DNA of 33,566 nt from assembly GCA_947447265.1 (NCBI GenBank), contig CANFKC010000050.1:1-33566 (forward strand), written 5' to 3'. This DNA comes from Chitinophagaceae bacterium. GTDB lineage: Bacteria; Bacteroidota; Bacteroidia; Chitinophagales; Chitinophagaceae. Position 1 is the first letter of the stretch, and every line of letters begins with the position of its first letter. The notes beneath the pieces were generated by a model that made no database searches, had not been told where the DNA came from, and saw nothing but the letters and a program-made list of their open reading frames with translations. This document shows, piece by piece, positions 28,127 through 31,187 of the stretch. The position numbers and the translations under genes are program-made.

Positions 28127-29239
28127 CTACAACTTACGACTAAGCGTAGCGCAAAACATACTATCTGCCTTCAGCCCTACCCCATTAATGATTTGAGAAG
28201 ATTCCAACTGCAAACCAGCGGCATTAACAACTTCATTCACCACATCCTCATTCTCTTCTTTAAAAACGGAGCAGGTAATATAAATTAATCTGCCGCCAGG
28301 TTTCAAATATTGCGCGGCGTTGATGGCAATGTTTTTTTGCCATACAGGGTACTTTTCCTGATTTTCCGGGGTAAAGAAATACAGCTGCTCTGGTGTCCTG
28401 GCCCAGGTACCGGAACCACTGCATGGCACATCGCAAATAATGTTATCGAACTGGGTTTTACCCATTATTTTAGCCAGTTGGGGCTTGTCTTCAACGTTCG
28501 CCACCAGTGCATTATTCAGCTTCAGGTGGTAGAGCTTAAAGCGTTCCTTCAAATTATGCAGTATACTTTCCCGCACATCGCTTACCGTGAGATTTACGGT
28601 TGGCTCAAGGTCTTTTAACAGCAGGGATTTACCACCAGCACCCGAACAACAATCCCACCACGCCTCATTCTTACCAGGGGTGAAAAACTGGGCGGTTGCC
28701 TGCGAAGAAGCATCCTGCACCACATAACTATCAGCAGCTAAAACCGATTCTATTTTGCTACCATTAGGCAATGCCAGACAACTATCCGTAATTGCAGTAA
28801 ACTCAATATTGTTTTCCTGCAGTAAAGCAACAATTTTGCCCTTATCCTTTCTTATCCTGATAAATAGCGATGGCTGCACCAGCATGGACCTAAGCCATTC
28901 TTCCCTGTTGATACCCGCAGAAAATGGCGCCTGGGAGGTAAATATCTGTTTAATTCCGAACGTTTCAGTGCCCTGCTTGGCTACTTCACCAAACAATATT
29001 TTAAGCGTTTTGTCGGCACCACACAACTGCAGGCACAACTGCATCTTCTGCTCGAAAGGAAAATCTTCAACACCTTTACTGCAACGGTACCAGCTATATG
29101 CAAGGTCGCTCAGTACACGCCTGTCGCGGCTACCGAGTTTCGGATATTGCTTGCAGAAATTTTTAAGGAAATGAGTTAATGGCACACTACCATTGTACGT
29201 ATCAATTATTGACTGTATGTGCTGCCAGATATACCGCAT
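28127..29239 (-). CDS. RsmB/NSUN-type RNA (cytosine-5) methyltransferase
   Basis: The 370-residue protein is an AdoMet-dependent rRNA or tRNA m5C methyltransferase. Residues 1-130 form an NusB-like/RsmB N-terminal helical part. Core motifs: VVQDASSQ at 173-180, the AdoMet loop DCCSGAGGKS at 196-205, DVPCSGSGTW at 270-279 with C273, and YITCSV at 320-325 with catalytic C323. Both cysteines used by m5C enzymes are present. The target cannot be told from sequence. Its translation start, with 34 further nt on the coding side, is duplicated 597 nt upstream around an inserted gene. Its last codons and stop coincide with two heptad units shared with the proS 3' end. Confidence 0.93.
   Translation of the reverse strand: MRYIWQHIQSIIDTYNGSVPLTHFLKNFCKQYPKLGSRDRRVLSDLAYSWYRCSKGVEDFPFEQKMQLCLQLCGADKTLKILFGEVAKQGTETFGIKQIFTSQAPFSAGINREEWLRSMLVQPSLFIRIRKDKGKIVALLQENNIEFTAITDSCLALPNGSKIESVLAADSYVVQDASSQATAQFFTPGKNEAWWDCCSGAGGKSLLLKDLEPTVNLTVSDVRESILHNLKERFKLYHLKLNNALVANVEDKPQLAKIMGKTQFDNIICDVPCSGSGTWARTPEQLYFFTPENQEKYPVWQKNIAINAAQYLKPGGRLIYITCSVFKEENEDVVNEVVNAAGLQLESSQIINGVGLKADSMFCATLSRKL
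28129..28143. repeat. Two heptad units over the methyltransferase stop codon
   Basis: The minus strand reads TTAGTCGTAAGTTGT across the codons for the last residues and into the TAG stop. It is identical to 27475-27489 at the end of proS. Confidence 0.75.
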
Positions 29240-29251
29240 GGCCCGAAATTA
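29203..29251. repeat. 49-bp direct repeat, copy at the methyltransferase start
   Basis: Positions 29203-29251 match 29800-29848 at 48 of 49 bases. The repeat covers the first 12 codons (MRYIWQHIQSII) of the methyltransferase and the 12 nt before its ATG, including a TAATTTCG sequence close to TAnnTTTG. Confidence 0.92.
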
Positions 29252-29323: not shown

Positions 29324-29836
29324 CTATAACTTCCTGGCCCGTGAAAACAAGGGAGTTTTGTGAGCAAGCTCTATCCCACTTCCACATTTCGCTACTTCGA
29401 CAAAACGCCCCGGCAAATTTGATTGACGTTGAACCGTGTCTAATAAGGACAAATCAACACTGGTCGATAAAAACCCAATATACCAAGTAGAATCATTTTC
29501 GGAAATACAGAATGCTTTGTCGTAGTAACTATTATGCCGCCTTTTTAGAAGGCTCTCGGTACTATTTTCATATCTATCCCAAAGCTCGTAGCTCAACTTT
29601 TTTCTTTTCGCAGGTTTCAAAGTATATCCGTTATCTGCAATAAACTGTTCCGCAAGCTTGATGGCAGTAACTTCCGAAATTGTTATAGTGTTTTGAAATG
29701 ATGTGACACCTATCCAAATTGAGAGTAAAAAAAAGCCCTGGAACAAAACTACCCAATTGTGCTTCAAACGTTGCGACTCCATAGGGCAAGTGCAAGCACC
29801 AATTATTGACTGTATGTGCTGCCAGATGTACCGCAT
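29324..29836 (-). CDS. Inserted single-pass membrane protein of unknown function
   Basis: The open frame is 170 residues from the ATG at 29836, but its first 12 residues (MRYIWQHIQSII) are the duplicated start of the downstream methyltransferase. A second ATG at 29782 would give a 152-residue protein starting MESQRLKHNWVVLFQGFFLL, with a basic N-terminus and one transmembrane segment or uncleaved signal. The remaining part is soluble (TAIKLAEQFIADNGYTLKP, STWYIGFLSTSVDLS), with no family recognised. It sits between the two 49-bp repeats, so it appears to have arrived with the duplication and may use either start. Confidence 0.6.
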   Translation of the reverse strand: MRYIWQHIQSIIGACTCPMESQRLKHNWVVLFQGFFLLSIWIGVTSFQNTITISEVTAIKLAEQFIADNGYTLKPAKRKKLSYELWDRYENSTESLLKRRHNSYYDKAFCISENDSTWYIGFLSTSVDLSLLDTVQRQSNLPGRFVEVAKCGSGIELAHKTPLFSRARKL

Positions 29837-29848
29837 GGCCCGAAATTA
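29800..29848. repeat. 49-bp direct repeat, upstream copy
   Basis: Second copy of the methyltransferase start region, one base different (GTA for ATA), in frame with the inserted gene. The segment between the copies is 548 nt. Confidence 0.92.
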
Positions 29849-30370: not shown

Positions 30371-30403
30371 AAATCATTTTTCAGGCGAAAAATCACTTTT
30401 AAA

Positions 30404-30548
30404 ATTGAAAATCTATTCTCACACTTGCACCCCCTGACGCAAATACCTCAACTGCCCGGGTGGCGAAACCTGCCTGTCCGGCAGGCAGGTTGGTAGACGC
30501 ACTGTGTTCAGGTCGCAGCGTTCGCAAGGATGTGCTTGTTCGAATCCA
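30404..30548 (+). pseudogene. Broken tRNA-Leu copy with degraded promoter
   Basis: Aligned with the intact tRNA-Leu locus, 30404-30468 matches 30865-30929 at 62 of 65 bases and 30490-30548 matches 30930-30988 at 58 of 59. The copy has a 21-bp palindrome inserted in the D loop, lost the acceptor 3' strand and half of the T arm after 30548, and its -7 box reads CACACTTG instead of TACATTTG. It cannot make a functional tRNA. Confidence 0.92.
30469..30489. repeat. 21-bp palindrome inserted in the tRNA-Leu pseudogene
   Basis: CCTGCCTG and CAGGCAGG pair perfectly around TCCGG; the flanking A and T extend the stem to 9 bp. It interrupts the D loop exactly between GAAA and TTGG of the tRNA, with no other change there. 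Confidence 0.85.
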
Positions 30549-30580
30549 CCAAAATTTAAGACTATTTCATATTTTCTTGT

Positions 30581-30844
30581 ATGTTTTACACCTACGCTAT
30601 CTGCAGTTTGTCTAGAAAATATATTTACGTTGGTATAACAAATAATTTTGATAGACGTTTTTCCGAGCATCAACATGGCTACAATAAAACTACAAAACCT
30701 TATCGGCCATTCGCTGTTCTAGAAGAACATGCCACAAGAGAAAATGCCCGAAATAGAGAAAAATACCTAAAAAGCGGTGCAGGAAAAGAATTTTTGAAGA
30801 CAATCTTCATTAAAACCAATATAGCGCCAGCTCAAAATAGCTAA
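30581..30844 (+). CDS. GIY-YIG nuclease family protein
   Basis: The 87-residue protein is a complete single GIY-YIG domain. The two strands carry the variant Y3-x-Y5-A-I and I15-Y-V-G18-I-T, R25/R26 and H30 lie on the following helix, and E60 in NREKYLK is the metal-binding glutamate. This is the size of the UvrC/SLX1-like stand-alone domain with no added DNA-binding module. An in-frame TAA at 30557 excludes an upstream start, so ATG 30581 is used. The gene lies in the 316-nt space between a truncated tRNA-Leu copy and the promoter of the intact tRNA-Leu, which suggests a tRNA-associated mobile gene. Confidence 0.9.
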   Translation: MFYTYAICSLSRKYIYVGITNNFDRRFSEHQHGYNKTTKPYRPFAVLEEHATRENARNREKYLKSGAGKEFLKTIFIKTNIAPAQNS

Positions 30845-30880
30845 AACCAAAAATCGTTTTATTTATTGAAAATCTATTCT

Positions 30881-30888
30881 TACATTTG
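30881..30888 (+). promoter_or_regulatory. -7 element of the tRNA-Leu promoter
   Basis: TACATTTG, perfect TAnnTTTG, with transcription expected about 20 nt before the tRNA. The same site in the broken copy carries two substitutions. Confidence 0.65.
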
Positions 30889-30914
30889 CACCCCCTGACA
30901 CAAATACCTCAACT

Positions 30915-30998
30915 GCCCGGGTGGCGAAATTGGTAGACGCACTGTGTTCAGGTCGCAGCGTTCGCAAGGATGTGCTGGTTCGAATCCAGTCCCGGGCA
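30915..30998 (+). tRNA. tRNA-Leu (anticodon CAG)
   Basis: An 84-nt class II tRNA. The acceptor GCCCGGG pairs perfectly with CCCGGGC, the anticodon stem is CTGTG/CGCAG with loop TTCAGGT (anticodon CAG), there is a variable arm with GTTCGC, the T arm is CTGGTTCGAATCCAG, and the discriminator is A. It reads CUG codons. CCA is not encoded. Confidence 0.96.
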
Positions 30999-31009
30999 CA
31001 AATAATAGA

Positions 31010-31047
31010 GCGGAGAAACACAGCGAGAGCGGTTTCTCCGCTTTTTT
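31010..31047 (+). terminator. Terminator of tRNA-Leu
   Basis: Stem GCGGAGAAAC with GTTTCTCCGC, loop of 12 nt, followed by TTTTTT. The following 140 nt to the next promoter show no gene. Confidence 0.92.
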
Positions 31048-31187
31048 CATTTTATTATTTCCCCATTCTTAGTTAGGCATATTTATTTCGCATGCGGGAC
31101 GCTTGAACCACTTAGGCTAATTGTCCGATACCAACCTTACTTTTTACTCCAACAAGATTAACGAAGTGCCACTTACAGGCAATATAT

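Follow-up and report, generated by a model that had tools for sequence, protein, structure and literature searches.

Small GIY-YIG nuclease genes between copies of tRNA genes: a candidate family of minimal selfish cassettes with palindrome-bearing tRNA remnants

In the window, i.e., the whole stretch of 33,566 nt that was analysed (contig CANFKC010000050.1 of a Chitinophagaceae bacterium), a gene for a small GIY-YIG nuclease lies between a broken and an intact copy of the same tRNA-Leu gene, which raises the question of what kind of element this is and how it may act on its tRNA. An earlier interpretation from the sequence alone (the sequence-only reading) had described two units of promoter and tRNA-Leu(CAG), the first broken and the second intact, and this description held. 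The units are 461 nt apart and identical at 120 of 124 aligned bases, and ARAGORN called only the second copy (30915-30999), which is preserved together with its promoter. The spacing of 461 nt proved correct for the left part of the repeat only; in the right part it is 440 nt, because the first tRNA copy holds a 21-nt near-palindrome, CCTGCCTGTCCGGCAGGCAGG (30469-30489), which had been overlooked. This palindrome is located inside the D-loop, exactly between tRNA nucleotides 15 and 16. Because the match to the intact copy also ends after tRNA nucleotide 74, the first copy is broken twice, by the 21-nt insert and by the loss of everything beyond this position; missing are the acceptor 3' strand and most of the 3' strand of the T stem. 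The locus consists of the following parts:

30388-30453, plus strand: leader/promoter, first copy (direct repeat D1, 30388-30468 vs. 30849-30929, 89%)
30454-30468, plus strand: broken tRNA-Leu copy, tRNA nucleotides 1-15
30469-30489, no strand assigned: 21-nt palindrome CCTGCCTGTCCGGCAGGCAGG, inserted in the D-loop with no base lost (same site in other Leu loci)
30490-30548, plus strand: broken tRNA-Leu copy, tRNA nucleotides 16-74 (direct repeat D2, 30490-30548 vs. 30930-30988, 98%)
30581-30844, plus strand: gene of the 87-aa GIY-YIG nuclease of the tRNA-Leu clade, including the stop codon (PF01541)
30849-30914, plus strand: leader/promoter, second copy (direct repeat; similar leader at the unoccupied site of genome G007, locus L327)
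30915-30999, plus strand: intact tRNA-Leu(CAG) (ARAGORN; RF00005 with 49.1 bits in locus L003)
31004-31052, plus strand: terminator-like hairpin and T run 3' of the intact tRNA (inverted repeat I1, 31004-31019/31032-31047)

Besides the nuclease gene, the only open reading frame of at least 60 aa between the two tRNA copies is an 85-aa antisense frame crossing the broken tRNA. No site-specific integrase was found among these frames, in agreement with the proposal of a small tRNA-associated cassette without an integrase. Elsewhere in the window, a 49-nt direct repeat (98%; 29203-29251 and 29800-29848) opens two adjacent minus-strand ORFs with the common N-terminus MRYIWQHIQSII, and the repeat pair looks like a partial local duplication.

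The 87-aa protein encoded between the tRNA copies matched PF01541 with 52.5 bits (E 6e-14), which confirms its previous assignment, and it contains the GIY-YIG superfamily domain with the conserved Tyr, Arg and Glu. Residues Y5, Y14, G18, R26, H30, E60 and K64 are invariant in 63 aligned sequences. An AF2 model of the protein (pLDDT 78) gave weak fold matches, the best of which were the GIY-YIG domains of UPF0213, I-TevI, Slx1 and UvrC, with the UPF0213-type structure 1zg2 on top (E 0.018). A sequence search of solved structures yielded no match at E 1, and NCBIfam gave no match for the window protein. In PHROGs, it matched phrog_314, a homing endonuclease (E 5e-5), and three relatives gave no match there.

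The genome from which the window derives contains seven PF01541 matches, five of which are short genes. Three of these five lie in the tRNA arrangement, at tRNA-Leu (the window), tRNA-Ala (L001) and tRNA-Val (L002), and each of these loci has a broken tRNA copy bearing a GC-rich hairpin. The fourth short gene (L004) is the sister of a gene of genome G004 in the tree (L022), which sits at tRNA-Lys; by eye, the L004 locus retains only a hairpin and a scrap, and it looks like a decayed tRNA-Lys case. The fifth (L005) falls into the other GIY-YIG branch and is surrounded by numerous copies of a 'gtcattgcgagcg...gaagcaacctcac' repeat, i.e., in a different nuclease-repeat neighbourhood. The same genome also contains a repeat with TCCCGATAGCTATCGGGA and CCTGCCTGCCGGCAGGCAGG palindromes side by side (L171, L177, L179), which is located close to the beginning of contigs C1 and C7 and in the interior of C16. 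On its contig C17, a second tRNA-Ala(GGC) is preceded by a hairpin-bearing remnant, with no nuclease noted in the fetched stretch (L180); this may be the other side of the tRNA-Ala cassette locus, split by the assembly.

Scanning one genome for each of 84,980 species revealed 512 relatives, the best 80 of which were fetched. A tRNA-Leu sequence adjoins the gene in all of these 80, and within 250 nt the opposite strand carries no tRNA in any of them. Because three of the five short genes of the window's genome and all 80 fetched relatives are linked to tRNAs, the arrangement is beyond chance. Usually an intact tRNA copy is accompanied by a remnant copy, which often carries a GC-rich palindrome, and two layouts recur. 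In one of them, the intact tRNA and its terminator are followed, usually after about 30-60 nt, by the gene, whose end often extends into a second tRNA copy, of which the 3' part is preserved. The other layout, which is that of the window, starts with a remnant in which the 5' part is preserved; the gene and then the intact tRNA follow. The intact tRNA lies after the gene in 42 of the 80 Leu loci, before it in 25 and on both sides in 4, and it went undetected in 9. The stop codon of the ORF is often a TAG within the following tRNA copy, at nucleotides 8-10 or in the D-loop. Some loci are tandem arrays, with as many as four nuclease units in L054, and in L046 and L053 the intact tRNA is preceded by nuclease-free remnant units, three at most; many other loci have no upstream repeats. 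By record title, Bacteroidota account for 52 of the 76 relatives that were long enough for a tree, and the other host groups are many lineages of Patescibacteria, Ignavibacteriota, Balneolota, Nitrospirota and Omnitrophota, where some of the Patescibacteria rows could be binning errors. With these possible errors and only three strongly supported branches in the 76-row protein tree, an argument for horizontal transfer across phyla from the trees was dropped.

The linkage extends to other tRNAs. We searched 78 genomes of the family, one per genus, with the PF01541 profile (at least 60 with a match), as well as 11 genomes of the window's genus. The 78-genome search was run at E 1e-10 with counts among the matches listed, and therefore some genomes counted as cassette-free may still contain one. 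We took the listed short-frame matches of the family, most short-frame matches of the genus (leaving out four, in G008, G006, G001 and G004) and 23 of the 28 long-frame matches as controls. The resulting 164 ORFs were reduced to 138 in 118 loci by dropping duplicates and scores below 40, and two short-domain ORFs were left off the tree. A tRNA or remnant was present on the same strand within 250 nt of 97 ORFs, corresponding to 80 loci. In the tree of 136 proteins, a branch of 102 with about 85 aa each was tRNA-linked in 94 cases, compared to 1 of 34 in the other branch (Fisher, 7e-23), in counts that ignore kinship among the loci and on protein trees that are poorly resolved. The eight unlinked members of the larger branch are L004, three inner copies of the L054 array, L077 at a contig end, L057, L134 and L099. 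Since some copies in the first tRNA library contained palindromes, we recounted with a larger palindrome-free library and obtained 95 of 102 versus 3 of 34 (p 1e-20), the three being weak matches of 26-28 bits. None of the 23 UvrC-type control loci had a tRNA within about 2 kb. The tRNAs at the cassettes include those for Ala, Val, Lys, Met, Leu, Arg, Pro, Asp, Phe, Glu, Ser and Asn, so the repeated tRNA-nuclease-tRNA arrangements at many tRNA genes that the sequence-only reading had envisaged do occur, both in this survey and in the 80 Leu relatives. The association of nuclease and tRNA that it had assumed applies to one branch (94/102), but tRNA-free homologues exist, almost all of them in the other branch. 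A GIY-YIG-like stretch with several stops 3' of a tRNA-Ser(GGA) (L325, G078:C212) is apparently a dead cassette.

Relatives with an unoccupied tRNA-Leu(CAG) site had been predicted, and they were found in the same genus. The tRNA had a match in 8 of the 10 other genomes, all eight with one plain copy; no CCTGCC palindrome lies within 600 nt of it in these congeners, and a motif search detected no GIY-YIG-like frame, in flanks that were shortened in G005 (13 nt upstream), G007 (79 nt downstream) and G001 (309 nt downstream). None of the congeners had two tRNA-Leu(CAG) copies without the nuclease, the case that would have spoken against the cassette. By eye, the unoccupied site of G007 has a similar leader, and that of G001 (L330) a sequence like the window's terminator 3' of the tRNA. 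The downstream flavin oxidoreductase-like gene, used as a probe, gave one partial match in the genus and no orthologous locus. At the tRNA-Val locus, the cassette is present in G010, G007 and G002, G006 has a Val-Val-Phe cluster without it up to the contig end, and in the remaining genomes the locus was truncated, had moved or could not be found. A plain tandem tRNA-Val-Val-Phe cluster without cassette lies at 3453-3744 of L186, where the leader of the second Val gene (agttctttaa...) resembles those of the cassette loci.

The palindromes of the remnants fall into classes, namely CCTGCC with the Leu clade and one Arg(TCT) clade, TCCGCC with the Met clade, and TCCCG with the half of the tree containing Val, Ala and Lys. 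The class tracks the nuclease clade more than the tRNA, as loci that share a tRNA show. At tRNA-Arg(TCT), CCTGCC occurs with five ORFs of one clade and TCCCG with three of another; at tRNA-Met, TCCGCC occurs with ten ORFs, and TCCCG in L064 and L111, both of which belong to the Val clade. The tree requires 11 changes for the class and 34 for the isotype, two numbers that are not directly comparable because the isotype has more states. The pairing with clades is opposed by 23 of the 95 linked tree rows, in which no palindrome class was matched, and by the two-class loci L063 (Met clade, with TCCGCC and TCCCG), L060 and L020. Among the best 80 Leu relatives, a CCTGCC palindrome is present within 260 nt of the gene in 55, compared to none of 80 stretches further out, some of which were shortened by contig ends; the 25 Leu loci without a strict match count against the explanation preferred below.

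We mapped the insertion sites of the CCTGCC class in the Leu remnants by demanding 10 of 12 tRNA-matching bases on each side, because of which insertions less than 12 nt from a tRNA end go undetected. From 104 overlapping pattern matches, 53 were clean and gave 33 distinct insertions in 28 loci, and the rest was left out. All 33 lie in a loop or at a loop border (34% expected, p 5e-16), with neither base loss nor target duplication. They divide into 23 in the D-loop, 9 in the T-loop and 1 in the anticodon loop; those upstream of the gene are in the D-loop (21 of 22), those downstream mostly in the T- or anticodon loop (9 of 11). The T arm had been suggested as the cut site, and the window's remnant indeed ends there, yet its palindrome sits in the D-loop and the palindromes of the family occur in D-, T- and anticodon loops, so this suggestion found no support in that form. 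A purine-pyrimidine junction (R^Y) forms the insertion context in 25 of the 33 cases.

The same 20-mer palindrome that occurs in tRNA loops is also found at sites outside tRNAs. We read 19 of 66 counted dispersed copies, from three genomes: 17 are inserted at R^Y (24% expected, p 3e-9), and no tRNA was called within about 0.4 kb of any of the 19. The TCCCGA..TCGGGA palindrome occurs 838 times in the 78 genomes, compared to 107 times for the pattern read backwards, and CCTGCCTG..CAGGCAGG has 128 copies in 21 genomes, compared to 0 for the control. Outside cassette loci, TCCCGA palindromes are more numerous in the 37 genomes with linked cassettes (mean 18.2) than in the 41 without (3.0; p 1e-5), whereas the backwards-read control is flat (1.65 vs. 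1.12, p 0.2). CCTGCC copies outside cassettes show only a loose link to the matching nuclease lineage: one or more are present in 6 of 8 genomes with this lineage versus 14 of 70 others (p 0.003), and two or more in 4 of 8 versus 7 of 70 (p 0.01), but G075 has 35 copies without the lineage and G060 has the lineage without any copy.

Hairpins that work as RNA should keep G.U pairs over A.C mismatches. The single mismatches in nearby terminator-like hairpins show this bias (37 G.U, 1 A.C, 6 others), whereas those in the remnant hairpins do not (12 G.U, 17 A.C, 43 others, besides 70 perfect hairpins), which makes a function as DNA likelier than one as RNA. Because of the 43 other mismatches, part of the remnant hairpins must be regarded as decayed or due to chance. 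From this pattern, the palindromes resemble features of the DNA, or else relics whose pairing is not under constraint. A role of the hairpins like that in type III toxin-antitoxin systems or of omega-RNA, which we had considered, is set back by this test, and repeats acting as folded RNA, as in type III systems, are not indicated by this indirect measure. We also discarded a group I intron, since 11 loci contained no intron family at E 0.1; the only RNA families in them were tRNA and one sub-threshold leader match.

Comparison with known systems places the cassettes between several of them. Integrative elements at tRNA attachment sites keep or rebuild the target tRNA and leave a partial copy on one side. 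The cassettes share the kept target tRNA and the partial copy, but they have no integrase, amount to only about 440-460 bp in total, and leave palindrome-bearing remnants both 5' and 3'. In Rickettsia, palindromic elements are likewise short palindromes inserted in genes, for which we know of no linked nuclease. Small GIY-YIG proteins of the UPF0213 type are similar in size and fold, but their branch, assigned by eye, is the one with tRNA linkage in 1 of 34 cases (3 of 34 on the recount). A closer parallel is SegB, a GIY-YIG homing endonuclease of phages T4 and T6, which is reported to cut tRNA genes internally and to promote amplification of the tRNA region (PMC13096335). Its reported motif, RAWTSGAAC, reads by inspection as the complement of the T-loop box, which is one of the palindrome sites in our family, and SegB was described there as having no isotype preference (PMC13096335). 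In both cases the GIY-YIG gene adjoins tRNA genes (here in 80 of the 80 best relatives and 94 of 102 in the survey), and the arrays in the cassette family suggest the same kind of tandem amplification as by SegB. As far as the SegB account available to us extends (PMC13096335), the differences are that SegB is phage-borne, while the cassettes reside on bacterial chromosomes with a lineage dedicated to a single tRNA family, and that palindrome-killed tRNA copies are not met in it. We found no match to two queries in 50,697 phage records (E 1e-3), and the query that gave 512 genome loci gave 2 viral contigs, so the cassettes are not a phage-carried type; a plasmid collection gave no match either, with L022 as the only query.

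The palindromes, in turn, recall REP sequences, short dispersed palindromes that go in step with the RAYT tyrosine transposase, whose gene lies beside copies of them, and the source states that CGTC-type REPs lack a dedicated transposase (PMC3733652). In the cassette family, palindromes are also dispersed in the genome and present beside the enzyme gene, but the enzyme is a GIY-YIG protein and no HUH tyrosine transposase, and tRNA loops are where its palindromes are located. The string CCTGCC is absent from the text of the same paper (PMC3733652), and we found no description of such cassettes in the open-licence literature of PubMed Central. Their recurrence at many tRNA genes in distant bacteria suggests that very small selfish elements of a so far undescribed family are present. 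It works like SegB and REP/RAYT combined and fits neither, nor does it fit an integrase element, a group I intron or, judged by the indirect mismatch comparison, a type III toxin-antitoxin system. Because it combines features of SegB and REP/RAYT, we regard the family as a new category; a heavier weight on the likeness to SegB would make it a SegB variant.

On balance, we lean towards assigning the locus to a large family of minimal selfish cassettes, in which a homing-like nuclease dedicated to a tRNA is coupled to a mobile palindrome. This reading builds on what the sequences display, namely the tRNA linkage, the attachment to Leu, the link between class and clade, the loss-free insertion into loops, the dispersal at R^Y, the unoccupied sites and the arrays. 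Each cassette lineage would be attached to one tRNA family, with a GIY-YIG gene of some 85 codons flanked by two copies of the tRNA gene; one of these would be kept intact, and therefore the host would survive. The displaced copy would be truncated and often carry the GC-rich palindrome typical of the nuclease lineage. The nuclease may cut the DNA of the tRNA gene in the boxes of the D- or T-loop, and repair from the cassette-bearing copy, with the conserved tRNA sequence as homology, would install or amplify the cassette. The palindrome would enter at breaks made by the nuclease, leaving the displaced copy dead and uncuttable, while the intact copy would be maintained by selection, as in a putative chromosomal counterpart of SegB. 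A point against this scheme is that the intact tRNA copy keeps all presumed cut sites. In a bolder version, which we put forward as a doubtful but attractive possibility, the cassette would be a natural cleave-and-rescue element of less than 500 bp that breaks an essential tRNA gene at the D-/T-loop boxes, kills the copy with its lineage-specific palindrome and supplies an intact tRNA, and its nuclease would also be the missing mobiliser of the palindromes dispersed in Bacteroidota and Patescibacteria, a RAYT counterpart built on an unrelated enzyme.

Three other explanations share part of this evidence. The nuclease may be a plain SegB-like homing enzyme beside tRNAs, and the palindromes ordinary dispersed repeats that landed in the dead copies independently of it. 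SegB provides a precedent, remnants are free to accept insertions, and dispersed palindromes occur in many genomes, including some that lack the matching lineage of the nuclease; but this is rather unlikely in view of a palindrome class that follows the nuclease clade at the same tRNA, the insertion at loops in 33 of 33 cases, the presence of CCTGCC near the gene in 55 of 80 loci versus 0 of 80 control stretches, and the richness of carrier genomes in dispersed TCCCGA palindromes. The pairing of hairpin class and nuclease clade would also suit a pair similar to type III toxin-antitoxin systems, with a protein that cleaves tRNA and a hairpin-bearing dead tRNA as transcribed decoy or antitoxin; several loci show the order of promoter, tandem dead-tRNA repeats, intact tRNA, terminator and nuclease, and dead copies often stand behind a tRNA leader. 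We consider such an RNA pair improbable, because the hairpins have no excess of G.U over A.C next to strongly biased terminators, the same palindrome occurs at tRNA-free sites, and many loci do without upstream repeats. Finally, the nuclease may chiefly mobilise the palindrome as RAYT does for REPs, with its gene kept in tRNA genes because their conserved loops serve as docking sites and essential genes resist deletion. The same 20-mer in tRNA loops and elsewhere, with similar R^Y contexts and no target duplication in the mapped cases, agrees with such a role, as do the pairing of clade and palindrome and the more numerous TCCCGA palindromes of carrier genomes; yet the co-occurrence of CCTGCC with its lineage is imperfect and, to our knowledge, no GIY-YIG protein has strand-transfer activity, and we give this explanation little credence.

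The interpretation offered by the sequence-only reading is partly supported as a whole; what goes beyond it are the clade dedicated to one isotype, the classes of palindromes and the tandem arrays. If the preferred reading of a tRNA-dedicated nuclease coupled to a mobile palindrome is true, the cassettes, which consist of a single short gene plus conserved tRNA sequence, would rank among the smallest elements that spread themselves in genomes of cellular organisms. They occur across phyla, perhaps because tRNA genes are similar everywhere. In that case they would also provide a candidate enzyme for palindromic repeats that lack one, as well as a collection of small nucleases that each seem to go with a single tRNA gene and a single palindrome, and would account for some odd extra or 'suppressor' tRNAs in gene calls. 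ARAGORN called palindrome-bearing dead copies functional at L015:1394-1488, in L130 and at L017:1851-1928, as a 95-nt tRNA-Arg, a 'tRNA-Stop(tta)' and a tRNA-Ser, and some suppressor or extra tRNAs in public gene calls may be false and originate from such dead copies.
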